From Bacillota bacterium (GTDB lineage Bacteria; Bacillota; UBA4882; UBA8346), in contig JAKOTQ010000024.1 of NCBI GenBank assembly GCA_029776205.1, positions 1 to 38,653 of the forward strand: 38,653 bases of DNA, in the 5' to 3' direction. Positions 1,796 to 30,078 of this stretch are shown piece after piece. Position 1 is the first letter of the stretch. The number at the start of each line of letters is the position of its first letter. A program made the translations under genes and the position numbers. Under the pieces are notes generated by a model. That model did not search any database. It saw only the letters and a program-made list of their open reading frames with translations, and was not told the DNA's origin.

Positions 1796-4432
1796 ATGGC
1801 CAAAACCACTCCAATGATCGAACAATACTTGGCGATTAAAAAAGAATATCAAGATTGTATTCTGTTTTTTCGCTTAGGTGATTTTTATGAAATGTTTTTT
1901 GAGGATGCCGTGATTGCCTCCAAAGAATTGGAAATCGTATTAACGTCACGGGAGAACAGCTCCGAACGCATCCCTATGTGTGGCGTGCCGTATCACTCCG
2001 TATCCAGTTATCTGGGGCGTTTATTAAATAAAGGGTATAAAGTAGCCATCTGTGAACAAGTGGAAGATCCGAAAGCAGCTAAGGGTATTGTGAAACGGGA
2101 GGTCGTTCGGGTCATTACCCCCGGAACCATTATTGAAGATCAGCTGCTGCAAGAGAAATCCAATAATTATCTTGCAGCGATCACCCAATATGAACACCAT
2201 TTAGGTTTTGCTTATGTAGATATCTCAACCGGTGAATTTAAAGCGACTCAATTTCCCAAACATCAGCATACATTATTGGCTGCCGAATTAACCCGGGTCC
2301 GTCCGGCTGAAATATACATATGCGAAAATGATGCTGAAACTTTACAGGAAATTCTGAAGCGGACAGAAAGCATGATCACTCACGGTGAACCCCATAATTT
2401 CAATTATGATCAGACCTATCGTGAATTGCAGGATCATTTCCAGGTGCAAAATCTCAGGTCTTTCGGGTGTGAAGAGTTACGGGCAGCCACGATCGCTGCC
2501 GGAGCCATTTTGTTTTATTTAAAATCAACGCAAAAAAATACCTTATATCATTTACGGCATTTAACCACCTATGAGACTGGGGATTATATGGCGTTGGATC
2601 CGGCAACCCGTCGTAATCTGGAACTCACCAAAAATATCCGAAGTGGAGAAACTGCCGGAAGCCTGTTAGCTGTATTAGATTTAACCGTAACTTCGATGGG
2701 TGCACGAACCCTGCGCAATTGGATTGAACAGCCCTTATCCAAACTGGACCACATTTTGGAACGCCAGGAAGCTGTCGCTGATTTTGTCGCCAATCTCGAA
2801 TTACGGGAGATGATGCGGGAAGCTCTTAAAAGCACCTATGATCTGCAACGAATTTTAAGCAAATTATCCGGCAATTCCGCCAATGCCCGGGATTTGCTGG
2901 CTCTCCGCAACACTTTACAAGTCTTGCCCGAGATAAAAGGGTTGATTCGCCGTTGTCCGTCGAAAAAATTGCAGGAGTTGGAGAAAAACCTATTACCGCT
3001 TTCGGACCTTACCGACTTATTGGAGCGAGCTTTGGAGGATAACCCGCCCCTCACATTGAAAGAAGGAGGGATGATCCGGGAATCTTTCGATCCGGAATTG
3101 CAAAAATTATTGAATGCAGCCAGCCGCGGGAAACAATGGGTGGCTGAGTTGGAACAAGCTGAACGGGAACGGACCGGCATTAAATCGCTGAAAGTCGCTT
3201 ACAATCAAGTATTCGGTTACTATATCGAAGTTACCAAAGCCAATCTCGATCTTGTTCCGTCAGATTATATCCGAAAGCAAACGCTGGCCAATTGCGAACG
3301 TTTTATCAATCAGCAACTTAAAGAATATGAAGACCTGATCCTCAATGCCCATGATAAAAGTATAGCCTTGGAATATCAAATCTTTATGAGCATTCGGGAT
3401 GAAGTTTTAAAGCAAATCGACAGTTTGCAAACGAATGCTATGATCTTGGCCGAACTGGATGCTCTCAATGCCTTAGCGGAAGTTGCCACCCGTTATCATT
3501 ATGTTCGGCCGGAGTTTACGGATACCGGAGAAATCCAGATTATCGACGGCCGTCATCCGGTAGTCGAACGGATGTTGCCTTCCGGTACGTTTGTTCCCAA
3601 TGATACGTTTTTGGATTTAAATGAATATCGCGAACAAATCATCACCGGTCCCAATATGGCCGGTAAATCCACCTATATGCGGCAAGTGGCTTTGATCGTT
3701 CTAATGGCTCATATCGGAAGTTATGTTCCAGCAAAACGCTGTGTCCTTTCTCCGGTAGACCGTATTTTCACCCGCGTGGGCGCTTCCGACGATTTGGCCA
3801 CCGGACAAAGTACTTTTATGGTTGAGATGAATGAAGTGGCTTACATCTTAAACCATGCTACCCGCCAGTCCTTTATTATCCTGGATGAAATCGGCCGTGG
3901 AACCAGTACCTTTGACGGTCTAAGCATTGCCTGGGCAGTTATCGAATTTCTAAACAATCCGAACCGGATTGGTGCTAAAACTTTAGTTGCGACCCATTAT
4001 CATGAATTGACCGTTCTCGAAGACAAGCTGAAGGGCGTTAAAAACTATCATGTAGCTGTAGAACGAAACGGTTCCGAGATTATCTTTTTACGAAAAATCA
4101 TGCCCGGCAGTGCTGCCCAAAGTTATGGTATTGAAGTAGCGGCTTTGGCAGGCTTACCAGCAGAAGTTACAGATCGGGCCAGGGAAATATTGAAAAGCCT
4201 AGAAAAAAATGAAGTGCTGGAATTTAAGGAAATCCAAAAAAAAGAAGAGGCTCAAACTGCTCAATCTGTTCAATCCGTCCAATCTGTCCAACCTGTTCAA
4301 CAATTGGCACTCTTTGAAACAGCACACAACCAAATTATCGATCAGCTACGTGCGGTGGATTTGGCCTCAACGACTCCATTGCAGGCTTTAAACTTACTAT
4401 ATCAATGGCAACAGGAACTCAGGAAAAATTGA
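1796..4432 (+). CDS. mutS: DNA mismatch repair protein MutS
   Basis: MutS binds mismatches and small loops and recruits MutL. At 878 residues it has the usual full length. The mismatch-reading Phe-X-Glu is F30-Y31-E32 (GDFYEMF). The Walker A motif is GPNMAGKST near residue 618, and the Walker B/signature region reads ILDEIGRGTSTFDG. ATG 1796 has GAGGTG 10 nt upstream and gives the standard N-terminus MAKTTPMIEQY; an in-frame TTG at 1778 has no such site. Near the C-terminus a run of Gln-Ser-Val repeats, encoded by a 9-bp tandem repeat, leads straight into QLALF (residues 836-840), a match to the sliding-clamp binding motif QLxLF. It is followed by mutL 56 nt downstream, so this is a classic mutSL operon. 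Confidence 0.98.
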   Translation: MAKTTPMIEQYLAIKKEYQDCILFFRLGDFYEMFFEDAVIASKELEIVLTSRENSSERIPMCGVPYHSVSSYLGRLLNKGYKVAICEQVEDPKAAKGIVKREVVRVITPGTIIEDQLLQEKSNNYLAAITQYEHHLGFAYVDISTGEFKATQFPKHQHTLLAAELTRVRPAEIYICENDAETLQEILKRTESMITHGEPHNFNYDQTYRELQDHFQVQNLRSFGCEELRAATIAAGAILFYLKSTQKNTLYHLRHLTTYETGDYMALDPATRRNLELTKNIRSGETAGSLLAVLDLTVTSMGARTLRNWIEQPLSKLDHILERQEAVADFVANLELREMMREALKSTYDLQRILSKLSGNSANARDLLALRNTLQVLPEIKGLIRRCPSKKLQELEKNLLPLSDLTDLLERALEDNPPLTLKEGGMIRESFDPELQKLLNAASRGKQWVAELEQAERERTGIKSLKVAYNQVFGYYIEVTKANLDLVPSDYIRKQTLANCERFINQQLKEYEDLILNAHDKSIALEYQIFMSIRDEVLKQIDSLQTNAMILAELDALNALAEVATRYHYVRPEFTDTGEIQIIDGRHPVVERMLPSGTFVPNDTFLDLNEYREQIITGPNMAGKSTYMRQVALIVLMAHIGSYVPAKRCVLSPVDRIFTRVGASDDLATGQSTFMVEMNEVAYILNHATRQSFIILDEIGRGTSTFDGLSIAWAVIEFLNNPNRIGAKTLVATHYHELTVLEDKLKGVKNYHVAVERNGSEIIFLRKIMPGSAAQSYGIEVAALAGLPAEVTDRAREILKSLEKNEVLEFKEIQKKEEAQTAQSVQSVQSVQPVQQLALFETAHNQIIDQLRAVDLASTTPLQALNLLYQWQQELRKN
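4253..4297 (+). repeat. Five tandem 9-bp repeats inside mutS
   Basis: Five units of the form CAATCTGTY lie in tandem: CAAACTGCT, CAATCTGTT, CAATCCGTC, CAATCTGTC, CAACCTGTT. They encode the (Q-S/T/P-V/A) linker just before the clamp-binding motif. The unit is a multiple of three, so gain or loss of copies would alter linker length without a frameshift. Confidence 0.85.
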
Positions 4433-4488
4433 TATGACACAATTCTCATCTTATTTAACTGATATTCGAAAACAGGAGGTGGGTTCCC

Positions 4489-6306
4489 ATGAAAGTCCAT
4501 CGGCTTGATGAACAGACCATCAACAAAATAGCTGCCGGTGAAATTATCGAGCGTCCAGCTTCAGTTGTCAAAGAATTGGTTGAAAATTCGATCGATGCCG
4601 GAGCAACCCGAATCGAAATCGAAATTAAAAACGGAGGACGCCAGCTGATAAAAGTCGTAGATAACGGATGTGGTATGGAGCAGGAGGATGCCGTCCTGGC
4701 TATCGAGCGCCACGCAACCAGTAAAATCATGCAAGTGGAAGATCTTCTTAATTTATATACGTTGGGCTTTCGTGGTGAAGCATTACCATCTATCGCTTCC
4801 GTGTCGACCTTTTCATTAATTACTAAACCTGCCTCTGCTGATTTCGGAACGTTGATCGAATGTAAAGGAGGCATTCTGCAAAAAGTCAAAAGTATCGGTG
4901 CCCCGGAAGGTACCAGTATCTCGGTCCAGGATCTTTTTTATAACACACCGGCACGACTCAAGTACTTAAAATCCATCCCGACAGAGAGTGGATATATCAA
5001 TGAAATTGTCACCCGGCTGGCTTTAAGTCATCCTGAAATCAGTTTTCAACTGAAACATCAGGATTACGATATGTTATTTACCCCGGGAAACGGCCGCTTG
5101 GAAGACACCGTTATTTCGCTGTTTGGCACGGAAATACACAGGGAAATGATCCCGATAGCAATGGAAGATCGTCATCTGAAAATCACCGGTTTTTACGGGA
5201 AACCCTCTATTGCCCGGACCAACCGAAAATACGAAATCTTTTACATTAACGGCCGTCATGTCAATAGCCGCATTTTAAGCTCTGCCGTGGAAAAGGCTTA
5301 TCATACTTTACTGCCGATCGCCCGTTATCCGTTTGTTATATTATTTATCGAACTTCCCCGCGACTGGGTGGATGTCAATGTCCACCCCACCAAACTTGAA
5401 GTTCGGTTTGCCAATGAATCCGATATATATAAAGCTGTTTATCATCTCATTCATAATTCACTGAAAGAACATTCCTTAATTTCGGAATGGATTAATCCGG
5501 ATGATGCCGTGTCTCTTTCCCGCATTGCAACCGAAACAACTGTACCGTTAAAATCGGAAGTACCGGCCACTTCAGCAACACCGGCGGCAAATCTGGATCT
5601 GAACTATCAGGTTTATCATGATATCTATGCAGTTAAAGAAGAAGTGTCATCCGTCCAAGAACCTGTAGCGTCAGAGAATACGCTTCATGTCGTACCGACG
5701 ATTCCCGACATACCGCCGGAGAAATCTTACCGCAATTGGTATGTCTATCCAAAAACCGTTCAAAATACCTACATTATTGTCCAGGACGAACAAGGTCTAT
5801 TGTTTGTTGACCAACATGCTGCCCATGAACGGGTGTTATTTGAACGGTTTTTTACAAAAACTCAGGAATTATTAGGAACCCAGGCATTGTTAATTCCGGA
5901 AACGGTTACGCTAAATTACACCCAATACAAAATCATCTCGGAACGTATGTCTCTCTTCAACGGTTTGGGATTTGATCTTGAAGCCTTTGGGGGAAAAACT
6001 CTTATTATTCGAGGTGTTCCCTTGACATTGGCCAATATGGACCATACCCAAATAATTTTCGATTTGTTAGAAGAATATGCCAACTTTAAAACCTTTAAAA
6101 GTCCTTCCGAAATTAAAGAGGCCTTTTTGATTACCATGGCATGCCGTGCAGCTGTGAAAGCCGGGGACAAACTGGATGTCCTGGAATGTGAAAACTTGAT
6201 TAAAGACCTTTTCCGGTGCGAAAATCCATATACTTGTCCCCATGGACGGCCAACTATCTTTCGAATGAGTTATGATGAATTAGGAAAGAAATTTTTGAGG
6301 CGATAA
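4489..6306 (+). CDS. mutL: DNA mismatch repair endonuclease MutL
   Basis: MutL is the ATP-dependent matchmaker of mismatch repair, and here it also carries the nicking endonuclease typical of organisms without MutH. The N-terminal GHKL ATPase is clear: ELVENSIDAGA and GFRGEALPSIASVS. The C-terminal domain has the metal-binding motif DQHAxxExxxxE at residues 441-452, an ACRAAVKAGD box and CPHGRPT near the end, the full set of endonuclease motifs. A segment QALLIP resembles the clamp-interacting Q-x-x-x-P region of Bacillus MutL. It has 605 residues and starts at ATG 4489 behind AGGAGGTG. The stop abuts the miaA start with no gap, which implies translational coupling. Confidence 0.98.
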   Translation: MKVHRLDEQTINKIAAGEIIERPASVVKELVENSIDAGATRIEIEIKNGGRQLIKVVDNGCGMEQEDAVLAIERHATSKIMQVEDLLNLYTLGFRGEALPSIASVSTFSLITKPASADFGTLIECKGGILQKVKSIGAPEGTSISVQDLFYNTPARLKYLKSIPTESGYINEIVTRLALSHPEISFQLKHQDYDMLFTPGNGRLEDTVISLFGTEIHREMIPIAMEDRHLKITGFYGKPSIARTNRKYEIFYINGRHVNSRILSSAVEKAYHTLLPIARYPFVILFIELPRDWVDVNVHPTKLEVRFANESDIYKAVYHLIHNSLKEHSLISEWINPDDAVSLSRIATETTVPLKSEVPATSATPAANLDLNYQVYHDIYAVKEEVSSVQEPVASENTLHVVPTIPDIPPEKSYRNWYVYPKTVQNTYIIVQDEQGLLFVDQHAAHERVLFERFFTKTQELLGTQALLIPETVTLNYTQYKIISERMSLFNGLGFDLEAFGGKTLIIRGVPLTLANMDHTQIIFDLLEEYANFKTFKSPSEIKEAFLITMACRAAVKAGDKLDVLECENLIKDLFRCENPYTCPHGRPTIFRMSYDELGKKFLRR

Positions 6307-7233
6307 ATGGAACGACCGATTATCATCATTGCCGGACCTACGGCTGTCGGAAAAACTGATTTTGCCATCTGGCTTGCCGAACAGTTGAATACCGAAATCA
6401 TTTCAGCCGACTCGATGCAGGTTTATAAATATATGGACATTGGTACCGCCAAACCAGATGCTCCCCAACAACAACGGGTCAAACACCATTTGATCGATTT
6501 GGTCCGTCCGGATCAAAGCTTTTCGGTTGCTGATTATCAACAGTTATTCGATAAGACCGTTGACGATTTCAAGCAGAAAGGCCGGATACCATTAGTCGTC
6601 GGAGGGACTGGTCTTTATATCCGCGCATCGATTCAATCCTTTGCCTTGGATAACTCGGCTCAACCCGATCCGGAGCTCCGCCATCGTTATAAAGAACTTC
6701 TCCAAACTTATGGCAACGAATATCTCCATCGAAAGCTGACTGAAGTTGATCCCGAAGCAGCTGCACGTATTCATCCCAATGACGCAGTAAGGATCATTCG
6801 AGCGCTGGAAGTATTTGAATTAACCGGAACTCCCATTTCCAAACTTCAAACTAAACATGGTTTGAAATATCCGGTGATCTATATTTTCTTAGATCGGAAT
6901 CGGGAGGAATTATACGACCGGATCAACCGTCGGGTGGAACTCATGCTGGAACAGGGTCTCCTGGAAGAGGTGAAATCCCTTTTAAACATGGGCTTTTCTG
7001 CTGATTTAAAACCAATGCAAGGCTTAGGCTATAAACAGTTGGTTGATTATTTGGAAAATCGACTGACATTCGACGAAGCCATTGATCAGATGAAGCAAAA
7101 AACCCGAAATTATGCCAAACGGCAAATTACCTGGTTTAAAAGAGAACCTCTTGATTATTCCGTCAACCTTTCTGGAAAAAAAGAGGAATTTTATTATGAG
7201 ATATTGAACTATATTGAAGGTAGATTGGGCTGA
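6307..7233 (+). CDS. miaA: tRNA dimethylallyltransferase MiaA
   Basis: MiaA transfers a dimethylallyl group to A37 of tRNAs that read codons starting with U, an early step toward ms2i6A. The 308-residue protein shows the P-loop GPTAVGKT (residues 10-17), the substrate motif SADSMQVYKYMDIGTAKP and the KRQITWFKRE segment close to the C-terminus. It begins directly after the mutL stop and has no spacer or independent promoter, so it depends on the mutSL transcript. The order mutL-miaA-hfq is widely conserved in Bacillota and Proteobacteria. Confidence 0.97.
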   Translation: MERPIIIIAGPTAVGKTDFAIWLAEQLNTEIISADSMQVYKYMDIGTAKPDAPQQQRVKHHLIDLVRPDQSFSVADYQQLFDKTVDDFKQKGRIPLVVGGTGLYIRASIQSFALDNSAQPDPELRHRYKELLQTYGNEYLHRKLTEVDPEAAARIHPNDAVRIIRALEVFELTGTPISKLQTKHGLKYPVIYIFLDRNREELYDRINRRVELMLEQGLLEEVKSLLNMGFSADLKPMQGLGYKQLVDYLENRLTFDEAIDQMKQKTRNYAKRQITWFKREPLDYSVNLSGKKEEFYYEILNYIEGRLG

Positions 7234-7282
7234 AATGTCGAATAAGATCAGTGGGAATTTGTTCAGTGGAGGGAATTAAATT

Positions 7283-7525
7283 ATGAATAAACCGATCATC
7301 AATTTGCAGGATGCTTTTTTAAATCAAGTTCGTAAAGAAGGCACTGCTGTGACCATTTTTTTGGTCAATGGTTTTCAACTCCGCGGTTTAGTCAAAGGCT
7401 TTGATAACTTCACCATCATTCTGGACAGTGAAGGGAAACAACAAATGGTTTATAAACACGCAGTTTCTACCATAATACCGGTAAAACCCCTTCCTGAGTT
7501 TGCTGCTGAAAAAAGAGAGGAATAA
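7283..7525 (+). CDS. hfq: RNA chaperone Hfq
   Basis: This 80-residue Sm-like hexameric RNA chaperone promotes pairing of small RNAs with mRNAs. The Sm1 region ([15 protein letters not shown] to [15 protein letters not shown]) and the Sm2 motif YKHAVSTI are intact. There is almost no C-terminal tail, as is usual in Gram-positive Hfq. ATG 7283 is preceded by GTGGAGGG. It follows miaA by 49 nt and is followed at once by a strong terminator, so it closes the mutS-mutL-miaA-hfq unit. Confidence 0.97.
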
Positions 7526-7547: not shown

Positions 7548-7603
7548 ATGGCCATTATAATTTCAGGGAAACGATAGATGTAATAGATAAGGGAGTGATA
7601 ATG

Positions 7604-8443: not shown

Positions 8444-8473
8444 GTTAATATTCATGAGAAAGGGCTGACCAGT

Positions 8474-9352: not shown

Positions 9353-10625
9353 CGATCAATTATTACAATGGATTGAAAAACATGAAGATTCCCTTTCGGA
9401 AATTTTCCGAAATATTTCACGCATCGCATTATATAATCAACGAAAAGTATTGAATGCATTTCACGCCGAAAAAATTGGCACCCATCATTTCCAATCAACC
9501 ACCGGTTATGGTTACAATGACTTGGGACGTGAAGCCCTTGAAAATGTTTTTTCAAGGGTTTTCGGCACTGAAGCCGCTTTGGTCCGCCAGCAAATGGTAT
9601 CCGGTACCCACGCCATTGCCTGTGCCATATTGGGAAATTTGAAACCTTCCCAGGAGCTGATCTTGGCCACAGGATACCCTTATGAAACATTGCTAGGCGT
9701 CTTAGGCATCAAGCCGGGGCAGGAAACCGTGGTCAGTGAAACGGGAGGATTTACCGTTAAAGTTATTCCGCTTTTGCCCGATGGAAATATCGATGTCGAA
9801 CGGATCCTGGATGCGATCACTCCAGCTACCGCCATGGTGGCCTTTCAACGTTCCTGCGGTTATTCATCCCGTCAATCCTTTACCATTGATAAATTACAAA
9901 AAGTATTTCAAGATATTAAAAGGATCCATAAAGATTTGCCATTATTTGTCGATAATTGTTATGGGGAATTTGTGGAAACTTTGGAACCTACTGAAGTGGG
10001 AGCTGACTTAATCGCCGGTTCCCTGATTAAAAATCCCGGAGGATGTTTAATCCCCAGCGGAGGATATATTGCAGGCCGGGCCGATTTGGTCAATAAAGCG
10101 GCGGAACGATTGTATGCACCGAAAATTGCCGGAGAAATCGGTCCGTCTCTATTAAATTTACAAATCTTCTTTCAAGGCTTCTTTGAAGCACCCCATCGGG
10201 TCAGCGATATGCATCGGGGAGCAGTTTTAACGGCAAAACTCTTTGAAGAAATTGGCTATCGTGTTTCTCCGCGCTTTGATGAGAAACGCACCGATATCAT
10301 TCAAAAGATTTTCTTCGATTCCGATCAGGATTTGATCGATTTTTGCCGGGCTGTTCAACGAAATTCACCCATCGAATCCCATGTGGTTCCGGAACCGGCA
10401 TTGCTGCCAGGATATTTACATCCGGTAATCATGGGAGGTGGAACTTTCATATCCGGTTCGACCAGTGAGTTTTCAGCTGATGCGCCGTTAACTCCGCCTT
10501 ATACCGCATTTATGCAAGGTGGTTTATCTTATACCCAGATTAAACTCAGTCTGGCAGGCATATTCCTTTCTAACTATTTACCAAAAATAATGGGTAATTT
10601 TACAATGTCAAGCAGGAATCCATAA
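9342..10625 (+). CDS. ynbB: Met-gamma-lyase-like PLP enzyme (YnbB / 'aluminium resistance' family)
   Basis: This 427-residue fold-type I PLP protein belongs to the family annotated as methionine gamma-lyase-like or aluminium resistance protein (Pfam Met_gamma_lyase). The likely Schiff-base lysine is K230 in AGSLIKNPGG, preceded by the cofactor-binding segment FVDNCYGEFVE. The N-terminal region TTGYGYNDLGRE and the VSGTHAIA segment are typical of the family. The substrate is not established. In Bacillus subtilis the homologue ynbB lies close to hfq, so the context fits. ATG 9342 overlaps the end of pheA. Confidence 0.9.
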   Translation: MEYNDQLLQWIEKHEDSLSEIFRNISRIALYNQRKVLNAFHAEKIGTHHFQSTTGYGYNDLGREALENVFSRVFGTEAALVRQQMVSGTHAIACAILGNLKPSQELILATGYPYETLLGVLGIKPGQETVVSETGGFTVKVIPLLPDGNIDVERILDAITPATAMVAFQRSCGYSSRQSFTIDKLQKVFQDIKRIHKDLPLFVDNCYGEFVETLEPTEVGADLIAGSLIKNPGGCLIPSGGYIAGRADLVNKAAERLYAPKIAGEIGPSLLNLQIFFQGFFEAPHRVSDMHRGAVLTAKLFEEIGYRVSPRFDEKRTDIIQKIFFDSDQDLIDFCRAVQRNSPIESHVVPEPALLPGYLHPVIMGGGTFISGSTSEFSADAPLTPPYTAFMQGGLSYTQIKLSLAGIFLSNYLPKIMGNFTMSSRNP

Positions 10626-10705
10626 TTTTTGAATTGAATACTTTTAAGCTCTCTTATACGTTTAAGATGGGTTTCTTATTTTGACTTGGTTGAAAGGAGA
10701 TTATT

Positions 10706-11074
10706 ATGAACCTTGTGGAGCTGCTTATTAATTTGGTTTTAGCCATCCCTATGGCCATTTGGTTCTACAAAGATGCCCGTGCTAGAGATTATATGTGGTA
10801 TTTCTGGGTTTTTGTGCCTTTAATCTTGATTTTCTCATCAACCATCATTACCATTGTCTTACTCTTGATTTTATTAGTATGCTATATAATGCTTCGACCC
10901 AAGGGAAATCTTTTTAAATGTCCCCATTGTCAGAAGGCTGTTCTCGAAGAATTATTCGTTTGTCCCTTTTGTCGTAAAAATGCTAAAAGAGAATGCTTAA
11001 ATTGTCATGAACCGGTTCCTTGGGAAGCAGACCAATGTCCGAAATGTAAGTCTAGGTCTCTGACGAAAGAATAA
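10706..11074 (+). CDS. Small membrane protein with double zinc ribbon
   Basis: This 122-residue protein has two or three membrane segments in its first 65 residues. Four CxxC knuckles follow (CPHC, CPFC, CLNC, CPKC), which form a double zinc ribbon of the DZR type. Start ATG 10706 has AAGGAG 7 nt upstream. Such proteins are common in Bacillota, and their function is usually unknown. The ribbon is probably cytoplasmic and may mediate protein or nucleic-acid contact. The gene is followed 38 nt later by a HEAT-repeat protein in the same direction. Confidence 0.8.
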   Translation: MNLVELLINLVLAIPMAIWFYKDARARDYMWYFWVFVPLILIFSSTIITIVLLLILLVCYIMLRPKGNLFKCPHCQKAVLEELFVCPFCRKNAKRECLNCHEPVPWEADQCPKCKSRSLTKE

Positions 11075-11112
11075 TATGTTGTTGGTTGGATGTATGAAGA
11101 AGGGAGACCATC

Positions 11113-12036
11113 ATGGGAATAGAGGCACAGCGCATAGACCACTTGATACAATTTTTAAATAAAATCGAACAGGAAATCACCGATACCTGTATGGATAAAA
11201 CCCGCCGTAAAGAACTGATTGAAAATTTACGGAATGAAGTCATCGAAGTTTTAAAAATCGCATTTATGGAGGGTGACCGTACGGTTCGGCATAGTGCCAT
11301 GTACGGACTGAGTAAAGTCGGCCTTGATCAATCATTGGATCTCTTTATTTCAGCATTGAATGATTCAGATGAACATGTCCGTGGATGGGCAGCTGAAGCA
11401 TTAGGAAAATTAAAGAATAACCGGGCTATTCAAGGATTGATTAAAGCGCTGGCTGATGAAAATCACTATGTTTGCTTCAACGTTTGTTCGGCATTAAAGC
11501 ATTTTGATCCAGACCAAATTGTGCCTCCTCTTACCCAAGCGCTTCAAGACCCGGATCAACAAATTCGCCGTCTCGCCTGCAAACTTCTTGGCGAAATTGG
11601 CGATTCCCAGGTCACCGAAGGGTTGATCATTGCCTTGAAAGATGAGGACTCGGGAGTCCGGTATGAAGCGGCCGAAGCTTTGCGTAAACTTCGAAATCCA
11701 GCCAGTATTCTTCCGTTGATTTCTGCGCTTCATGATCCAAATCATGATGTCCAAGCCGTCGCCATTATGGCATTGGGCAGTTTCGGGGATGAACGGGCCG
11801 TAGAGCCTTTAGTAGCTATGATGATTGAGCAAAAAAATCATCGTCACGCCTGTCTGGAGGCGTTACGGGGAATCTGTGGCGATGAATGCCTAGATACCCT
11901 TTTTGAATTGATCCGTTCCAGCAAAAAGGCAATTAGCGAAACTGCTGCCACAATCTTAAAGAATATGTACCGGCGTAATAATGATAATATCAATGTATCC
12001 CAGAAGCAATATCAGCGGGCTGGAAATGCCAGCTAG
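11113..12036 (+). CDS. HEAT-repeat (PBS-lyase-like) protein
   Basis: This 307-residue protein is built of about six to seven helical repeats of roughly 31 residues. Repeated phrases such as VRGWAAEALGKL, IRRLACKLLGEIGD, VRYEAAEALRKL and VQAVAIMALGSFGDERAVEPL mark the HEAT_2 / PBS-lyase type. There is no signal peptide or membrane segment, so it is cytoplasmic. HEAT proteins of this kind act as interaction scaffolds, and no enzymatic function should be assumed. ATG 11113 follows AAGGGAG. It is probably co-expressed with the zinc-ribbon membrane protein upstream. Confidence 0.85.
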   Translation: MGIEAQRIDHLIQFLNKIEQEITDTCMDKTRRKELIENLRNEVIEVLKIAFMEGDRTVRHSAMYGLSKVGLDQSLDLFISALNDSDEHVRGWAAEALGKLKNNRAIQGLIKALADENHYVCFNVCSALKHFDPDQIVPPLTQALQDPDQQIRRLACKLLGEIGDSQVTEGLIIALKDEDSGVRYEAAEALRKLRNPASILPLISALHDPNHDVQAVAIMALGSFGDERAVEPLVAMMIEQKNHRHACLEALRGICGDECLDTLFELIRSSKKAISETAATILKNMYRRNNDNINVSQKQYQRAGNAS

Positions 12037-12103
12037 AGTAATTGTGAACAACGTTTATGGATATACTATTTAAAGTGCAAAAGCTTAAAACAAGGAGATT
12101 CTC

Positions 12104-12157
12104 TTGAACCGTTTTAGCAATATTGAGTTTAGCTTAAAGCGGGTTGTATTTCCATGA
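12104..12157 (+). CDS. 17-residue leader ORF coupled to surE
   Basis: A TTG at 12104 has a very good ribosome binding site, AAGGAG at 12092-12097, 6 nt upstream. It opens a frame encoding MNRFSNIEFSLKRVVFP and ends in TGA at 12155-12157. That stop overlaps the surE ATG at 12154 as ATGA. surE itself has no Shine-Dalgarno sequence at the right distance, so translation of this short ORF probably delivers ribosomes to surE. No experimental or homology support is available to me. Confidence 0.6.
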   Translation: MNRFSNIEFSLKRVVFP

Positions 12158-12915
12158 AACAACCACTGAAGATTTTATTAAGTAATGATGACGGCTTTCA
12201 TGCTGCCGGTTTACAAGCACTCTATCAAGCCATTAAAGATAAAGCAGAAGTAACCATCGTTGCACCGGACCGGGAACGGAGCGCAGTCGGCCATGGTATC
12301 ACCATGCATCAGCCTCTCCGGGTCGAGCAGGTTCAATTGGATGGCAAAACCCATTGGACTGTCGACGGAACCCCATCCGACTGCATCAAACTTGCTTTGG
12401 AAAAAGTACTTCGCGATCAATGGCCTGATTTGATCATCTCTGGAATTAACCGCGGCCCCAACTTAGGAAGCGATGTTTTATATTCTGGGACTGTTTCGGC
12501 AGCGATTGAAGGTCATATGTACGGTATTCCAAGTATAGCAGCATCCGTCTATGACTTTGGAAATGCAAATTTTTCACCGGCTGCTCAATTTTTGGCTGAC
12601 CATATAGAGAAATTATTGGAACTTGCTTCCCATAGCCTTATCAATATTAACTTTCCCACGGTTTCCGCAACTAACCCCCAAGTACGGTTTACCAAATTGG
12701 GCAGGTTAAACTACATCAATGTTTTTGAAGAACGAAAAGATCCTCGGGGGCGCATTTATTACTGGATGGGGGGAGAACCGGCTAAACAAGAACAGGAAGC
12801 CGACTCCGACATCCGAGCAGTGGAAGAAGGGGATATATCCATTACGCCACTTACCATTGACTTAACTCATTATCAATTTTTACAGAGTGATTATCTGAAA
12901 ACTTTTAAATGGTAA
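12154..12915 (+). CDS. surE: 5'/3'-nucleotidase SurE
   Basis: SurE is a metal-dependent phosphatase acting on nucleoside monophosphates, often linked to stationary-phase survival. The 253-residue protein has the metal-binding motif SNDDGF at residues 10-15. The conserved segments DRERSAVGHGIT, VDGTPSDCIKLAL and SGINRGPNLGSDVLYSGT, and the later AAIEGHM, all fit. The start ATG 12154 has no proper ribosome binding site of its own and overlaps the stop of a short leader ORF, so expression looks translationally coupled. A shared terminator separates it from convergent lexA. Confidence 0.96.
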   Translation: MKQPLKILLSNDDGFHAAGLQALYQAIKDKAEVTIVAPDRERSAVGHGITMHQPLRVEQVQLDGKTHWTVDGTPSDCIKLALEKVLRDQWPDLIISGINRGPNLGSDVLYSGTVSAAIEGHMYGIPSIAASVYDFGNANFSPAAQFLADHIEKLLELASHSLININFPTVSATNPQVRFTKLGRLNYINVFEERKDPRGRIYYWMGGEPAKQEQEADSDIRAVEEGDISITPLTIDLTHYQFLQSDYLKTFKW

Positions 12916-12918
12916 ACG

Positions 12919-12950
12919 AAAGGAACTGTTTCCGAACAGTTCCTTTTATT
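12919..12950. terminator. Bidirectional terminator between surE and lexA
   Basis: A 12-bp perfect stem, AAAGGAACTGTT/AACAGTTCCTTT with loop TCCG, is followed by T-rich sequence on the + strand and offers a shorter T-run on the - strand. It lies between the convergent surE and lexA stops. Confidence 0.85.
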
Positions 12951-12969
12951 TATTACTTGTGGGATTGAT

Positions 12970-13599
12970 TTAGTGAATTTTACGGACCAAACCGATCACT
13001 TTGCCTAGAATTTGAACGTTATCGGTGATAATCGGGTCGTACTTGTCGTTCTCCGGTTGCAGCCGAATCGCGTTTTTCTCTTTATAGAAGCGTTTTACCG
13101 TTGCTTCCTCCTCAAGTAAGGCCACAACAATATCCCCGTTATCTGCGTAACGATGTTCGTTGGAGACCACGACCAAATCTCCGTCATATATCCCGGCATT
13201 GATCATGCTGTCTCCTTTGACCCTTAGCATAAAAACCGAATCTGTCCTGGTAAAATCCCGGGGAAGCGGAAAATAATCTTGAATATTTTCAGAGGCTAAT
13301 ATGGGTGCACCTGCAGTTACTGTACCAACCACCGGAATATTGACTAAATCCCGATGGAAAGCAGGCAGATCCGAATCATGATCGTTCCCAATCAACACTT
13401 CAATAGCTCGAGGTTTGGTAGGATCCCGCCGCACATATCCGAGCTTTTCCAGTTGGGCTAAATGTGCATGTACTGTCGAACTGGAGCTTAAGCCCACAGC
13501 TTCCCCGATTTCCCGCACTGATGGGGGATATCCTTTTTGTTGAACTTCATTGATGATATACTCCAAAATTTGGCGTTGGCGTTTTGATAATTCCTCCAC
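12970..13599 (-). CDS. lexA: SOS repressor LexA
   Basis: This 209-residue LexA represses SOS genes until RecA filaments trigger self-cleavage. The winged HTH spans residues 1-65 ([17 protein letters not shown] and [18 protein letters not shown]). The cleavage site is A96-G97 in VTAGAP. The catalytic serine is S131 (KGDSM) and the lysine is K169 (ATVKRF). The start is GTG 13599 with GGGAGTG about 8 nt upstream. It is divergent from a yneA-like gene across a control region holding three GAAC-N4-GTTC type boxes, one of which overlaps the -35 of lexA, so autorepression is expected. Confidence 0.98.
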
Positions 13600-13708
13600 G
13601 AATGGTTCACTCCCGAAACAAAATTAAAAAAATATTTTTATATGAAAGAGTAGAGTAGGGGGCCTTGAATGTCTCAAATTCTAATTCTAAAGAAATTTCA
13701 CTAAAGCC

Positions 13709-13737
13709 ATTATATCATAGCTTCTGTCGAAATACAA
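13709..13737 (-). promoter_or_regulatory. lexA promoter
   Basis: On the - strand TTGTAT (13732-13737) and TATAAT (13709-13714) are separated by 17 bp, a good sigma-A type match. The -35 overlaps LexA box 1 by three bases, which gives a direct route to autoregulation. Confidence 0.7.
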
Positions 13738-13748
13738 ACATTTGTTCT
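13735..13748. promoter_or_regulatory. LexA box 1 (lexA-proximal)
   Basis: CAAACATTTGTTCT has one mismatch to the Gram-positive LexA (DinR) consensus core GAAC-N4-GTTC. It overlaps the lexA -35 element and is centred 30 bp from box 2. Confidence 0.7.
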
Positions 13749-13757
13749 ATTTTCCTA

Positions 13758-13787
13758 TTGACACCGAACAATTGTTCGTGTTATATT
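13758..13787 (+). promoter_or_regulatory. yneA-like gene promoter
   Basis: TTGACA at 13758-13763 is a perfect -35. TATATT at 13782-13787 is the best -10 with an 18-bp spacer (TTATAT at 17 bp is the alternative). LexA box 2 fills the spacer, so repressor binding would block polymerase directly. Confidence 0.75.
13765..13778. promoter_or_regulatory. LexA box 2 (perfect palindrome)
   Basis: CGAACAATTGTTCG is a perfect 14-bp palindrome matching the consensus CGAAC-N4-GTTCG exactly. It sits between the -35 and -10 of the yneA-like promoter. Confidence 0.92.
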
Positions 13788-13795
13788 ATAACCAT

Positions 13796-13809
13796 CGAAC
13801 ATCCGTTTG
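13796..13809. promoter_or_regulatory. LexA box 3 (yneA-proximal)
   Basis: CGAACATCCGTTTG has one mismatch in the GAAC-N4-GTTC core. It begins near the predicted transcription start of the yneA-like gene and is centred 31 bp from box 2, so the three boxes repeat at about three helical turns. Confidence 0.65.
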
Positions 13810-13829
13810 GGTTGAGGAGGAATCTTTAA

Positions 13830-14129
13830 ATGAAAGTAAGAACCAAATATTATAAATGGTCATTCAAAAGATTCTTAACGAATATGTTTCTTTTAACGTT
13901 AATCGTCGGTATCGGAATTTTCTGTTTTTCCATCGCAGTAAAAGCCACTCAAGAAAAATCCATTGAATGGATTACTGTTAAACCTGGAGATACTTTATGG
14001 ACTATTGCTGTCAGCATCGCACCGGAAAACGACCCGCGAAATACCATCGCGAAAATTAAACAGTTAAATCAATTAACCGGCTCAGATCTGATTGTAGGCC
14101 AAAATTTAAAAATTGAAGTTATCAAGTAA
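13830..14129 (+). CDS. yneA: SOS-induced cell division inhibitor, YneA-like (LysM)
   Basis: This 99-residue protein has a basic N-terminus, one membrane segment (about residues 16-38) and an extracytoplasmic LysM domain (about residues 47-97; TVKPGDTLWTIA ... VGQNLKIEV). Size, architecture, divergence from lexA and LexA operators in the promoter all match YneA of Bacillus subtilis, which halts septation during SOS. ATG 13830 follows GAGGAGG. The resolvase and small protein that follow yneA in Bacillus are absent; instead an AT-rich stretch with a dif-like site follows. The assignment is strong by context, although the LysM sequence alone would not prove it. Confidence 0.87.
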   Translation: MKVRTKYYKWSFKRFLTNMFLLTLIVGIGIFCFSIAVKATQEKSIEWITVKPGDTLWTIAVSIAPENDPRNTIAKIKQLNQLTGSDLIVGQNLKIEVIK

Positions 14130-14258
14130 ATTTAAGGCTTAAACCATTACTACAATTATATATTAATTATTGAGAGTTAAATTCCATAGATTAATCAAGT
14201 AATTTAAAGTAGTTTCTTTAAATATAATAAAATTAATATAAAAAGAGATAAATTAAGC

Positions 14259-14290
14259 GCTCAGGTTTATCATCTGAGCTTATTTTATTA
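14259..14290 (+). terminator. Weak terminator-like hairpin after yneA
   Basis: The stem GCTCAG/CTGAGC with a 9-nt loop is followed by TTATTTTATTATT, about 130 bp after the yneA stop. The T-run is interrupted, so efficiency is uncertain. Confidence 0.45.
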
Positions 14291-14316
14291 TTCGTAGCCT
14301 TTCAAGGTAAATTTTT

Positions 14317-14344
14317 GAGTCGTATAATATATATTATGTTAACT
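14317..14344 (+). other. dif: dif-like XerC/XerD recombination site
   Basis: The left 11-bp arm is GAGTCGTATAA, the 6-bp centre is TATATA and the right 11-bp arm is TTATGTTAACT. From memory of known sites, the right (XerD) arm matches Escherichia coli dif (TTATGTTAAAT) and Bacillus subtilis dif (TTATGTAAACT) at 10 of 11 positions each. The centre equals the Bacillus one, and the left arm shares 7 of 11 with E. coli dif, including the ATAA next to the centre. It lies in a non-coding gap where gene direction switches from mainly + to mainly -, as expected at a terminus. A mobile-element Xer site is the main alternative. Confidence 0.8.
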
Positions 14345-14616
14345 TATAACCGCGAAAAGACCGCAAACGCAATTTTTCGCCCATACGTTATTTTCCAATC
14401 CATTCATCGAAGAATCTTTTCATTTTCAGCAGCAATTTTATATAACTCATAATTATTTCACATCAATAACCCGACCAAGTATTTTATAACTCGAAATTGA
14501 ATTTTGGCTATAGATTTCAGTAAAATAATTATGCTAATGATTTAAGTCATAGGCTTAAAATTTGGTGTATAAATTTTTGAATTATATTATCCCTTAATTT
14601 ATAATGTAAAATTTAT

Positions 14617-16188
14617 TTAATACTTTGAAGCCATTTTTAATAAAGCTTCTTTAGCGTATGCGGCTTGTGATTCATCGACTAAAACCACCAGATAATCGCC
14701 AGCACCAATTGACGTTTGACCGTTGGGAATAATATCTTTCTGGCCTCGTAAAATACTTACCAGTAAGGTTCCAGCAGGCCATTGAACATCTTTGATACGT
14801 ATGCCATCAATCGATGAACCCATTTGAACAGCGATCTCCAAAAGTATTTTAGCTGTTGTCTCCTTAGACACTCTATGCTTGTCTTTATTATTATTCTCTA
14901 GCATTCTTTCCAAAAGCGATTCATAGATCGGCTTAGAACCGGTTAAATCAGCAACGATAAACGCCACAAATGAGACTACGGCCAAGGAAAGCAAATGATT
15001 TAAAGAACCAGTCATTTCTGATATCAAAATGCAGCCGGTGATGGGCGCCCGGACGATAGCCGTAAAATATCCGGCCATAGCCAAAATAATAAAGTTGTTT
15101 ACATAATGTATTTCAATACGAAAACCTAAATTCAGCGTTTTTCCATAAATGAGCCCTATCAGCGCCCCTAATGCCAGCATAGGCAGAAAAATGCCTCCAG
15201 GCGCTCCGGAACTGTAGCTGATCATCGTAAATATAAATTTCATGGTTAAAAGAATAATAGCGATGTTAAGGATAATCTCTTCCCGGGTTAAGGACATAAT
15301 GAGATCATGCCCTCCCCCCATCACTTCCGGAAGGAAAATACCCAAAATACCACCGAGCCATAACGGGATCACTATTTTCCAATATCCCGAAAGCCAAGGC
15401 AAGTTTCCCCATAACTCCTGACATCTAAGCAACGCCCAATTGAAAAATGATCCTGCTAAGCCCAAAATAATACCAAGTAACACTAGATATCCGTAATATT
15501 CAAGAGGCAACGGTGAAATTTCGGCAAAATTGAGCACCGGCTTCATACCAAAAAACTCTTTCGATAGGATATCAGCTGTTACTGCGGCAGACATAGCTGT
15601 TATTAATACGCGCGGCGAAAAGTTCTTATGGACTTCTTCCAAAGCAAAAATAACACCAGCCAATGGCGCATTAAAAGCTGCCGCAAGTCCAGCACTGGCG
15701 CCGCCGGTAATTAAAAACTTTTCCTCAATGGTCGGCCGCTTTAACATTTTACTGATTCCTTGTCCTGCGGCAGCCCCCAATTGTATCGAAGGGCCCTCCC
15801 TTCCTAAGGAAAGTCCCGCTCCGAGTGCCAATGACCCGCCGATGAATTTTCCGAGAATCACCTTCCACCAATTCATCTCCAATTGATGTAAGAGAACTCC
15901 TTCAACCTGCGGAATGCCGCTTCCCTTCGTCATCGGTTCCTTTCGAATGATCCAATAGATAATAGCCGCGATCCCTGTAAGAAATAAAAACCAGACAGGT
16001 ATCAATCGGTAATTGTCTGAAAGGCAATGATATATCCATACCGATAACCGGCCCATTTTTTCTAGGACAAACCGATAAAAGACGACAATGAGACCTGAGA
16101 CCAGCCCAACCAAAATTCCTTGAAAAACAAGGAGCATTTTAAAGTTTTTCCAATGAGTGAGCATCCTTGAAACAGATTGAGCAGACAT
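14617..16188 (-). CDS. ClC-family H+/Cl- antiporter with C-terminal RCK_C (TrkA-C) domain
   Basis: This 523-residue chloride transporter has the ClC signatures GSGIPQVEG, GREGPSIQLG (with the gating glutamate) and GGIFLPMLALGALIG. An EE pair in FALEEVHKNF corresponds to the internal proton-transfer glutamate of exchangers, so antiport rather than channel activity is likely. The last 80 residues form an RCK_C/TrkA-C regulatory domain, which suggests ligand control. The start is ATG 16188 with AGGTG upstream. It is a single gene, separated from ilvC by the ilvC terminator. Confidence 0.94.
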   Translation of the reverse strand: MSAQSVSRMLTHWKNFKMLLVFQGILVGLVSGLIVVFYRFVLEKMGRLSVWIYHCLSDNYRLIPVWFLFLTGIAAIIYWIIRKEPMTKGSGIPQVEGVLLHQLEMNWWKVILGKFIGGSLALGAGLSLGREGPSIQLGAAAGQGISKMLKRPTIEEKFLITGGASAGLAAAFNAPLAGVIFALEEVHKNFSPRVLITAMSAAVTADILSKEFFGMKPVLNFAEISPLPLEYYGYLVLLGIILGLAGSFFNWALLRCQELWGNLPWLSGYWKIVIPLWLGGILGIFLPEVMGGGHDLIMSLTREEIILNIAIILLTMKFIFTMISYSSGAPGGIFLPMLALGALIGLIYGKTLNLGFRIEIHYVNNFIILAMAGYFTAIVRAPITGCILISEMTGSLNHLLSLAVVSFVAFIVADLTGSKPIYESLLERMLENNNKDKHRVSKETTAKILLEIAVQMGSSIDGIRIKDVQWPAGTLLVSILRGQKDIIPNGQTSIGAGDYLVVLVDESQAAYAKEALLKMASKY

Positions 16189-16226
16189 CGCATTAACACC
16201 TATTTTTCAACTTAAAATGAATAATC

Positions 16227-16260
16227 CATAAAAAACCGGAAGAATTTTATTCTTCCGGTT
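16227..16260 (-). terminator. Intrinsic terminator after ilvC
   Basis: The 12-bp stem AACCGGAAGAAT/ATTCTTCCGGTT with a 3-nt loop is followed on the - strand by a T-run (the A-tract at 16229-16233). It lies 15 bp past the ilvC stop. Confidence 0.88.
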
Positions 16261-16275
16261 GATCTAGCATCAATA

Positions 16276-17331
<1,056 letters not shown>

Positions 17332-17370
17332 TCATACAATAATACATTTTTTAAGTCATTTTTATTAAAA

Positions 17371-17400
17371 AATAGAGCGATCATTTTGCAATGATAGCTC
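17371..17400 (-). terminator. Terminator after pduL
   Basis: On the - strand the stem GAGCTATCATT/AATGATCGCTC (one mismatch, 4-nt loop) is followed by TATTTTTTA. It lies about 40 bp after the pduL stop. Confidence 0.75.
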
Positions 17401-17439
17401 TAAGGTGTTTATCAATATAGATGATTGGGATATATCATT

Positions 17440-18015
17440 TTATTTTAAAACGATGCCTTGATCTCCATTGTTCAAACCAGCAGCATTGGCTTCGTCAGTA
17501 TCCAGGTGAAAATCTTTCGCGAAATTGGGGCTGACCCGTACTAAAACGTTATTGAAAATCACTCCCCGAGGGCCGTCAAATTTCACCGATACGATATCTT
17601 TATCTTTCAAGCCCATTTCGGCAGCTTCATCCGTGTGTAAATGGATATGCCGTTGGGCAATAATCACGCCTTCATCCAAAGTAACAGAACCTGCAGGCCC
17701 TTCCAACACGATTCCAGCCGAACCGTCAAGAGCTCCCGAATCCCTCACCGGCGGATTAACTCCTAAAATGAAACTATCGGTACGGGAAATTTCAACCTGA
17801 GTTTTAGGACGAACCGGGCCTAAAACACGAACTTTAGCAATTTTGTTTTTCGGACCGACTAAAGTCACGACTTCTTCAGCAGCATATTGTCCAGGTTGGG
17901 ATAACGGTTTCATTGGAGTTAACTCATGGCCCTTGCCAAAAAGGATTTCGAGATGTTCTTGTGACAAATGTAAATGACGATTGGAGATACCTACAGGAAC
18001 AGTATAGTTTGACAA
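17440..18015 (-). CDS. pduL: Phosphate acyltransferase PduL-type (phosphotransacylase)
   Basis: PduL enzymes interconvert acyl-CoA and acyl phosphate and are unrelated in fold to Pta. The paired zinc-site motifs are present: NRHLHLS near the N-terminus, AQRHIHLHTDEA in the second barrel, then the DFHLDTDEANAAG end. I choose TTG 18015 (MSNYTVPVGISNRHLHL) because GTGAGG lies 9 nt upstream; GTG 18030 would overlap that site. The protein has 191 residues and no encapsulation peptide is evident. No microcompartment shell genes are nearby, so it probably works as a housekeeping phosphotransacetylase with an acetate kinase encoded elsewhere. Confidence 0.92.
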   Translation of the reverse strand: MSNYTVPVGISNRHLHLSQEHLEILFGKGHELTPMKPLSQPGQYAAEEVVTLVGPKNKIAKVRVLGPVRPKTQVEISRTDSFILGVNPPVRDSGALDGSAGIVLEGPAGSVTLDEGVIIAQRHIHLHTDEAAEMGLKDKDIVSVKFDGPRGVIFNNVLVRVSPNFAKDFHLDTDEANAAGLNNGDQGIVLK

Positions 18016-18093
18016 GATAAACAACCTCACTTTATAAAAATAATGTATGTATAATAGCTAAAAATAAAAAAAGCAGTATTAAACCACTATAAA

Positions 18094-18169
<76 letters not shown>

Positions 18170-18182
18170 GTAACACCATTAA

Positions 18183-18211
18183 ATTATACATAATTTGCTC
18201 TTGTTTGTCAA
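18183..18211 (-). promoter_or_regulatory. tRNA-Trp promoter
   Basis: TTGACA (18206-18211, - strand) and TATAAT (18183-18188) are separated by exactly 17 bp. This is a perfect sigma-A promoter, 13 bp before the mature tRNA 5' end. Confidence 0.9.
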
Positions 18212-18275
18212 TTTATTTTCAACAAGTTTATCGATAAATTTTTATACAATGATTCAATAAATTCACAATTCAAAC

Positions 18276-18665
18276 TCAGCTTGAAAAATTGACGCCAATA
18301 ATTCCGCCAAAAGCACCTATAAAAGCATTAATCGCAATTTTCACCAGAAATACGGGCCAATTCACCGGCTCTCCCATTATAAATGCCAACAATAAAATGA
18401 AAACAGAGCTGATAACGCCTACTCCCGCGCCAGTCAGCCAACCATTCCTCCCACTTTTTAAACCTGCTAAAACAGCTCCGATGACCACTGAGCCATAGAT
18501 AAAAAGCATCCATATATCGTTGGCCCAACTCATCACTCCGGTCCATCCCAATTGAGTTAATACCCCGAATAGAAGTGCCAAAATGAAAATTATGAGAATA
18601 ACCGTTAATGAACCCGACATTATCGGTCCGAAGGGAATACTCATGGTATTTTCCTTCTCTACCAT
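18276..18665 (-). CDS. Small four-helix membrane protein, TIGR04086-like
   Basis: This hydrophobic protein of 129 residues has about four membrane segments and glycine-rich helices (YGSVVIGAVLAGLKSGRNGW, GAFGGIIGVNF). The layout resembles the TIGR04086/YrzE membrane family of Bacillota, whose function is unknown. ATG 18665 has GAGGTG 7 nt upstream, and the in-frame extension to 18710 lacks a binding site. Family placement is from overall pattern, so only moderate confidence is justified. Confidence 0.65.
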   Translation of the reverse strand: MVEKENTMSIPFGPIMSGSLTVILIIFILALLFGVLTQLGWTGVMSWANDIWMLFIYGSVVIGAVLAGLKSGRNGWLTGAGVGVISSVFILLLAFIMGEPVNWPVFLVKIAINAFIGAFGGIIGVNFSS

Positions 18666-18778
18666 TTCCTTCACCTCAACCCCATTTAATTGATGATGAG
18701 TTACCATCAAAGACTGAGATCACTTTATCACCAATTTATGGGTTGCAGTCAGTAAATATTACTTTTTAGCGAAGGAAA

Positions 18779-19879
18779 TTAATTATTTTTATCGCCAATC
18801 TCACTTTTACTAACGACATTGATCTGGCGGTTATGTCCCAACAACCAGTACTCTTTCTCATCGGGAACCGGTATAATTTGGGCGATTCGGCCAGTATAAA
18901 ACACTTGAGTTTCATTCCAGCGCTTTTGAACGGGATTGTACCCTAAAATATGGGTATTGCCTGCACTATCGGTTACAATGACTTCTGAAGATTTACCCGG
19001 AACATACTGTATATTTTCGATCAAATAATTACTTTGCCAGGGCGCCTGAATAAACCGATAGCTTTTATTAGCATAACTCAATATATAATTTACCTTTTGA
19101 CTGGTGGTCACCATAAACCCAGGTTTTCCGTCCTGATTCCAATCTCCGAAATGAACTGCTAAAACTTTCCCCCAAGGATAGTTTTCCGATTGGGAAACCA
19201 CTGCATTTTTTTCGATTTTCAATACTGCAAGACTACCGTTTTGATAAGAAACCAAAATCTCATCCAGTGAATCCCCATCTATATCAATAACTTGCAAAAA
19301 TCGAATCTGGCGCCATGGCGACGGACTTTTCCATACAATATTCAAAGCATCATCCATTCGTTTGAGATAAAACAATGAACCTTCCGAATTTTGGGCGATA
19401 AATTCGGTTTCTTCCGTTTCGGTAAACCTACCACTAACAATGTGGTTTATATTAGACCATAGATATTTGCTATTATCCCTGATTGTCCATTGAGAATCTT
19501 GGTTTAAAGCATAAATGTATAAAAATCCGGGTTCATCGGTACCAGCGATAATCTCCGGCTGGTTATCCCAATCAAAGTCACTTACCCAAACTGTGGTAAA
19601 GTGATTTGATTTGGCTAATAAACGTTGATATTCCACCCATTGGTTATCTACACACTGATGAATAACCAGCTGCCCATCCTGGATCGAAACCGAAAACAAT
19701 TGATGGTCATAATAAAAAAACTGCTCCGGTAAGCGTTCATACGGCCAGGCCTGAACCATTCCTGTAGATATACTCCATTGGGCAGAAGATGACTGGGTCC
19801 ATCCTGGTGAAAAAGAACCCGTTCCTATGATTAAACCCAAGCAGATCGCGAACATCAGTAAAAAGGTGAACCGCTTCAC
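18779..19879 (-). CDS. Secreted FG-GAP/VCBS-like beta-propeller protein
   Basis: This 366-residue protein has a clear N-terminal signal peptide (basic start, hydrophobic core to about residue 22). Repeats with calcium-loop-like motifs follow: SDFDWDNQPEIIAG, VIDIDGDSLDEILVS and GDWNQDGKPGFMVT. These are typical of FG-GAP/VCBS propellers. It has no sortase or S-layer anchor and no catalytic motif that I can see, so it is probably exported and may bind a ligand or assist cell-surface assembly. Start GTG 19879 has AAGGAG 9 nt upstream. Neighbours give no functional clue. Confidence 0.72.
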   Translation of the reverse strand: MKRFTFLLMFAICLGLIIGTGSFSPGWTQSSSAQWSISTGMVQAWPYERLPEQFFYYDHQLFSVSIQDGQLVIHQCVDNQWVEYQRLLAKSNHFTTVWVSDFDWDNQPEIIAGTDEPGFLYIYALNQDSQWTIRDNSKYLWSNINHIVSGRFTETEETEFIAQNSEGSLFYLKRMDDALNIVWKSPSPWRQIRFLQVIDIDGDSLDEILVSYQNGSLAVLKIEKNAVVSQSENYPWGKVLAVHFGDWNQDGKPGFMVTTSQKVNYILSYANKSYRFIQAPWQSNYLIENIQYVPGKSSEVIVTDSAGNTHILGYNPVQKRWNETQVFYTGRIAQIIPVPDEKEYWLLGHNRQINVVSKSEIGDKNN

Positions 19880-19954
19880 TTTTTACATCTCCTTACACGC
19901 TATTCGTTTTTGGTATATAATTCCATCTTTATTTTAAAGTTCCTCTCAAGGTTA

Positions 19955-19990
19955 ACAAAAAAGGTTTGTGTAAAAATCACACAAACCTTT
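19955..19990 (-). terminator. Terminator after tRNA-Pro
   Basis: The stem AAAGGTTTGTG/CACAAACCTTT with a 9-nt loop is followed on the - strand by TTTTTTGTT. It lies shortly after the tRNA 3' end. Confidence 0.85.
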
Positions 19991-20003
19991 AAAATATCAA
20001 AAA

Positions 20004-20080
20004 TGGTCGGGCAGGCGGGATTTGAACCCACGGCCCCCACCACCCCAAGGTGGTGCGCTACCAAGCTGCGCTACTGCCCG
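20004..20080 (-). tRNA. trnP: tRNA-Pro (GGG anticodon)
   Basis: The 77-nt cloverleaf has acceptor stem CGGGCAG/CTGCCCG, D-arm GCGC/GCGC, anticodon stem CCACC/GGTGG with loop TTGGGGT (anticodon GGG) and T-loop TTCAAAT. The CCA end is encoded. It is a single-gene transcript with its own promoter and terminator. Confidence 0.97.
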
Positions 20081-20095
20081 TAACGAACAAAAATT

Positions 20096-20124
20096 ATTGT
20101 ATCACTTCTTTGCCGCTCCGTCAA
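20096..20124 (-). promoter_or_regulatory. tRNA-Pro promoter
   Basis: TTGACG (20119-20124, - strand) and TACAAT (20096-20101) are 17 bp apart, with the -10 placed 15 bp before the mature 5' end. Confidence 0.82.
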
Positions 20125-20164
20125 TAGCTTACCTTCGTTTAAATCCCCAGGTACTATTGAAAAA

Positions 20165-21184: not shown

Positions 21185-21236
21185 CTATCTTTCCCTCCTA
21201 TAAATGCAATCATCCTTTTTAATGGGGGCCCTATCA

Positions 21237-29871: not shown

Positions 29872-30078
29872 TTATTTAATCCCGGTTTTGGTACGCTCGA
29901 TGCCGATTTTTCCTGCGTAAATCTCTTTCAACGCCAGAGATACCGCTTTCTCCTTTTGCTCTTCATCATTGTTGTTGTTTTCTTCAAGTATTTGGCGGGC
30001 TCGTTTCGCTGCAGCGATAACCAACGTATATCGGCTGTCGACATGCCGAATCAGTTCGTCCAATGATGGATAGATCAA
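29872..30078 (-). CDS. rpoZ: RNA polymerase omega subunit RpoZ
   Basis: This 68-residue omega subunit assists assembly of the beta-prime subunit. The hallmark stretch IYPSLDELIRHVDSRYTLV is followed by AAAKRARQI and a C-terminal ALKEIYAGKIGI. The start is TTG 30078 with AGAGGGGG 9 nt upstream. It follows gmk by 21 nt, the standard gmk-rpoZ order, and ends the operon. Confidence 0.95.
   Translation of the reverse strand: MIYPSLDELIRHVDSRYTLVIAAAKRARQILEENNNNDEEQKEKAVSLALKEIYAGKIGIERTKTGIK

Follow-up and report, generated by a model that had tools for sequence, protein, structure and literature searches.

A stretch of DNA from an uncultured Bacillota bacterium (hereafter the window, 38,653 bases, which is the whole of contig C2 in a 124-contig draft genome of 2.73 Mb) raises the following question: is a 28-bp sequence that lies between two opposing sets of genes the chromosomal dif site, and is it the place where the replication forks meet? 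An earlier note, made from the letters of the window, had proposed that it is a candidate dif at the terminus. This reading is upheld in its main part, a dif at the terminus, whereas the local skew showed a step and no clear inversion, and the neighbouring repair genes proved not to be specific to the organism. From sequence comparison, we estimate a probability of about 0.96 that the 28-mer is the chromosomal dif, at or beside the meeting place of the forks. We prefer this interpretation because the sequence is identical in a congener, the motif of relatives is placed at a switch, the match is unique, and XerC, XerD and an FtsK-type protein are encoded in the genome. The site would be ordinary in kind, and it would locate the replication terminus in a lineage known solely from draft genomes.

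The 28-mer, its arms and its conservation

The 28-mer with its TATATA centre was found exactly where the earlier note had reported it, in a gap of 487 bp (14130-14616) bounded by a YneA-like gene and a ClC gene, and comparison with the dif sequences of E. coli and B. subtilis as printed in PMC3025954 (GGTGCGCATAATGTATATTATGTTAAAT and ACTTCCTAGAATATATATTATGTAAACT, respectively) gave the same count for the XerD-side arm as that stated there. The gene directions described on either side were also as stated: the genes from 328 to 14129 are all on the + strand with the exception of lexA, and those from 14617 to 32228 are all on the - strand with the exception of apgM. The two tRNAs of the right arm are likewise both on the - strand. 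The layout is that of dif, with two 11-bp arms forming a partial inverted repeat around 6 bp and a XerD arm close to TTATGTWAA, and the XerC-side arm shows 7/11 identity to E. coli dif and 7/11 to B. subtilis dif. The coordinates of the main features are presented in Table 1.

Table 1 Features of the window around the putative dif site
Feature	Position	Strand	Characteristics
mutS, mutL, miaA, hfq	1796..7525	+	Portion of the conserved block preceding dif, in the left arm; order in relatives from tblastn
lexA, SOS repressor	12970..13599	-	Reads away from dif; Pfam LexA_DNA_bind and Peptidase_S24; NCBIfam lexA 236 bits
Three LexA-box-like sites (13736, 13766, 13797)	13736..13808	+	Divergent promoter of lexA and the yneA-like gene; site at 13766 perfect (GAACAATTGTTC)
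YneA-like protein, putative SOS cell-division inhibitor	13830..14129	+	LysM, Pfam 43.5 bits; ends 187 bp before dif
dif (putative), 28 bp	14317..14344	+	GAGTCGTATAATATATATTATGTTAACT; XerC-side arm, centre TATATA, XerD-side arm
XerC-side arm	14317..14327	+	GAGTCGTATAA; outer bases GAGTCG
XerD-side arm	14334..14344	+	TTATGTTAACT; 10/11 identity to E. coli and B. subtilis dif (PMC3025954)
ClC-family channel	14617..16188	-	First gene to the right of dif, at the start of the leftward-reading arm; Pfam Voltage_CLC 334 bits
rpoZ (omega subunit)	29872..30078	-	Right arm; TIGR00690 60.4 bits

Searches in the whole genome, which is 99.4% complete, revealed the 28-mer as the sole match at ≤3 mismatches, and a reversed control pattern gave 0 matches at the same threshold. 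When a looser pattern was applied, the 28-mer was the only site with zero mismatches, and eight further matches were obtained at one or two mismatches, a number not above that obtained with the reversed control. The second, equal or better dif match for which the earlier note had proposed to look was therefore not found with either pattern, and the single full match corresponds to the one copy per chromosome that is characteristic of dif.

The search of genome contigs with MutL yielded one useful near relative, a congener (G001) represented by a contig of 17,099 bases, in which the genes and their order are the same as in the window. All 28 bases are identical in the alignment of the two; the identity starts and stops at the edges of the motif, and the spacer on either side is mostly scrambled. 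Homologous sites were also identified in other families. In those further genomes of the window's family that have a match, the outer part of the XerC arm is GAGTCG (GGGTCG in one case); the same form is present in G046 and, with one change, in G011, and ACGTCC or a similar sequence occupies this position in most of the other sampled Bacillota. Thus, the weaker match of the XerC-side arm to E. coli and B. subtilis is explained by GAGTCG being the form of the outer XerC arm in this lineage. The lineage-specific consensus, GAGTCGTATAATAYATATTATGTTAACT, can be used to orient other fragmented assemblies. A separate observation is that several genomes contain at least two dif-like matches, including contig C24 of G063 and contig C1 of G130, where the paired matches are on opposite strands at distances of 1.5 kb and 0.15 kb, respectively.

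Could the 28-mer be something other than a chromosomal dif? The gap is rich in AT and the 28-mer includes TATAAT, which is similar to a -10 box, as would suit an AT-rich palindrome formed by chance or a promoter, but the 22-base core had no match at ≤3 mismatches in 100 dinucleotide shuffles of the window, which rules out a chance origin, and neither a palindrome nor a promoter of this kind agrees with an exact and sharply bounded identity in the congener or with the fact that numerous families have the motif at this same switch of strand; we regard this explanation as extremely improbable. Plasmids and the ends of elements can carry Xer sites as well, and the 28-mer might accordingly be a pdif-like site that belongs to a plasmid or to an integrated element. 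The core genes on the same contig (mutSL, gmk, def-fmt and priA), an order of genes across the 28-mer that is shared with the congener and includes no insert, and the single occurrence of the site in the genome all speak against such an origin, which we consider very unlikely, if slightly less so than the former.

Skew and the meeting place of the replication forks

Assuming that the 28-mer is a chromosomal dif, do the forks meet there? Most of the contigs sampled from this genome have a skew with an absolute value of ~ 0.10-0.20, which varies little along each contig and depends only in part on gene direction. In the window, raw skew is about 0 to the left of dif (+0.015) and about -0.115 to -0.13 to the right. 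The effect of gene direction was corrected using third-position G minus C per codon, with a mean of +0.10 for genes read with the fork and -0.136 for genes read against it, and the result was expressed as a replichore index that extends from +1 for a pure + replichore down to -1. The left arm has an index of -0.15 (bootstrap -0.28 to -0.04) and the right arm an index of -0.73 (bootstrap -0.90 to -0.56), i.e., 73% of full strength. After this correction, a plain + replichore was ruled out for the left arm. The best change-point in corrected third-position skew is located between lexA and the YneA-like gene, beside dif (permutation p 0.0015). The GC-skew switch anticipated in the earlier note was thus borne out in part: the composition step at dif is real, but in this 124-contig draft it starts from about 0 and does not show a clear inversion from plus to minus.

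Some further features of the composition were recorded. The index of the left arm (328-14129) is smaller in size than that of every other sampled stretch of the genome. The candidate FtsK-guiding octamers GAGAAGGG and GGGNAGGG show a bias to the leading strand in the sampled contigs and are too rare within the window to judge, and most of the top polar 7-mers change orientation at dif, an effect that is confounded with gene direction.

The same question was addressed in relatives, whose motifs were set in one orientation so that the flanks could be compared. In 17 of the 20 loci of this panel, skew is + before the motif and - after it; the three loci with no such change have <400 bp on one side (G022 and G023) or 1.5 kb (G046). 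Gene direction usually switches at the motif too, where both flanks have enough genes; it does not in G040, in which the genes around the motif show no clear bias. In two single-contig genomes, skew was sampled every 100-250 kb. The sole sampled + to - change in G048 is at the motif (1,828,736), where gene direction also switches, and that in G043 falls between 1.359 and 1.379 Mb, an interval that includes the best motif (from 1,365,792). The first match in G043 (1,339,235) was rejected as dif because its XerC arm is poor and skew does not switch at its position. In G005, a member of the window's family, the 130 kb that lead up to dif have positive skew, and the first 10 kb beyond have a skew of -0.12. 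Clear switches at the homologous site were found in G005, G011, G048 and G043, and the window itself combines a switch in gene direction with a step in composition.

These data are also relevant to another possibility, namely, that the 28-mer is a true dif, yet the forks usually meet elsewhere, with a termination zone reaching to the left and a gene-direction switch that marks dif only. Third-position skew is neutral in the left 14 kb of the window and strong in its right arm, as such a displacement would predict, but the step between the two adjoins dif, and in G005 the sign inverts cleanly at dif. The congener can be cited on both sides, since its raw left-side skew is also near zero but its corrected index is ~ -0.2 on both sides of dif, the right side being just 3.7 kb long. 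A neutral stretch beside dif is present in G048 as well, to the right of the site and hence on the opposite side from that in the window. We rate this possibility at somewhat below even odds. For the interpretation that we prefer, a dif at or beside the meeting place of the forks, the combination of a neutral left arm and a right arm on the minus replichore suggests that the fork-meeting zone probably extends to the left of dif.

Linkage of lexA, a YneA-like gene and dif

The gene that precedes the putative dif has the features of the YneA type: it is small, encodes a LysM domain and (by eye) a membrane segment, and is divergent from lexA, with LexA-box-like sites between the two. YneA of B. 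subtilis is described as an SOS-induced division inhibitor (PMC13396833). The score of the window protein with the NCBIfam YneA model (NF010723) is 49.7 bits (E 2.7e-13), below the cut-off of 60; judged by its sequence, the protein appears to be YneA-like and was not filed as YneA. Over the window as a whole, LexA-box-like sites are no more numerous than expected by chance, but three of them are placed within 73 bp at the divergent promoter of lexA and the yneA-like gene, and relatives have comparable clusters. A LysM gene beside lexA and before dif was also identified in G001, G060, G010, G020 and G011, the last with an extra small ORF between this gene and dif, and in G007, G054 and G051 the LysM gene is likewise present and separated from dif by one further ORF. 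In G011 and G051, the interval from the YneA-like gene to dif includes a small cysteine-rich ORF, ICNNCGECLKCDVDPSKICDNCGACIG in one case and a similar one in the other.

How widespread is this arrangement? From 149 Bacillota genomes, drawn evenly, 77 had both the motif and lexA; the motif search made no use of lexA, so the linkage count is not circular. The distance between lexA and dif is ≤2 kb in 36, ≤5 kb in 45 and ≤25 kb in 56 of these 77 genomes, related genomes among them not being independent samples, and a lexA placed at random in a genome of 2.5 Mb would be within 5 kb of dif in about 0.4% of cases. In 14 of the 77, lexA and dif are on different contigs, and the true linked share may be higher. 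Where the distance is ≤25 kb, lexA is on the XerC-arm side in 55/56 cases; in the remaining case, both its side and its strand are opposite, and lexA reads away from dif in all 56. Among the close cases with miaA on the same contig, this gene is at a median distance of 8.4 kb from dif and on the same side in 30/31. Since miaA is also linked and on the same side, the block as a whole has been preserved, and within it lexA is closer to dif than miaA is.

The earlier note had also proposed that repair genes flank the terminus in this organism. These genes are present, but they belong to an old Bacillota block: tblastn recovered the block order before dif in G001, G060 and G048 and partly in G007 and G055, and the order mutS, mutL, miaA, hfq, a PLP-enzyme gene (9342-10625 in the window) and lexA is shared with other Bacillota families (G060, G048 and partly G055). 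A peculiarity of the organism was thereby ruled out.

The terminus is commonly viewed as a region of the chromosome that is prone to change, and an order of genes kept there across dozens of Bacillota families calls for a functional or a historical explanation. A speculative proposal, which we think rather unlikely, is that lexA, a YneA-type SOS division inhibitor and dif constitute an old linked Bacillota module, possibly a functional one in which SOS output and the division block are tied to the completion of replication. If the linkage were functional, the checkpoint genes would be copied last, beside the site that resolves dimers made by recombination. In the literature searched, mostly without subscription papers, no description of a lexA-dif linkage was found, and we do not claim that it is unpublished; Kono et al. 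touch on LexA merely in passing (PMC3025954).

Xer machinery and other genes of the window

All components expected of a dif/Xer system are encoded elsewhere in the genome: XerD on contig C94 (TIGR02225, 401 bits) and XerC on contig C103 (TIGR02224, 360 bits), both above the cut-off, and an FtsK-type translocase with a gamma domain on contig C105 (PF09397, 104 bits). By analogy with known dif/Xer systems, we infer that XerC and XerD bind and recombine the 28-mer under the control of FtsK. XerC would occupy the left arm and XerD the right arm, strand exchange would take place in the 6-bp centre between two copies of dif, and the translocase would gather the dif sites at the septum, a dimeric chromosome thus being converted into two monomers.

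A close parallel is B. subtilis dif with CodV/RipX, which is similar in its 28-bp length, 11-6-11 layout and XerD-side arm, as well as in its two Xer recombinases and FtsK/SpoIIIE-type translocase; the difference is in the outer XerC-side arm, ACTTCC in B. subtilis and GAGTCG in the window. The E. coli XerCD-FtsK system is alike in layout, class of function and XerD-side arm. However, E. coli MG1655 dif is on the minus strand (NC_000913.3 1,590,750-1,590,777) with the XerD arm toward lower coordinates, whereas in the Bacillota panel the XerC arm points toward the + gene arm, so that the order of the arms relative to the coordinates is reversed between the two. The XerS system of streptococci and lactococci also resolves dimers with a tyrosine recombinase, but it consists of one recombinase and a 31-bp site (PMC3025954), in contrast to the two recombinases and the 28-bp site of the window genome.

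Two proteins of the right arm deserve a mention. A protein of 339 aa (20165-21184) had no Pfam match, and its N-terminus resembles, by eye, a DNA-binding segment of the Myb/SANT type. An S13-like H2TH-domain protein (31018-31341; PF22525, 86 bits) has yicC, a RemA-like gene and gmk as neighbours and resembles the integration host factor of the mycobacterial type, here in a Bacillota genome.
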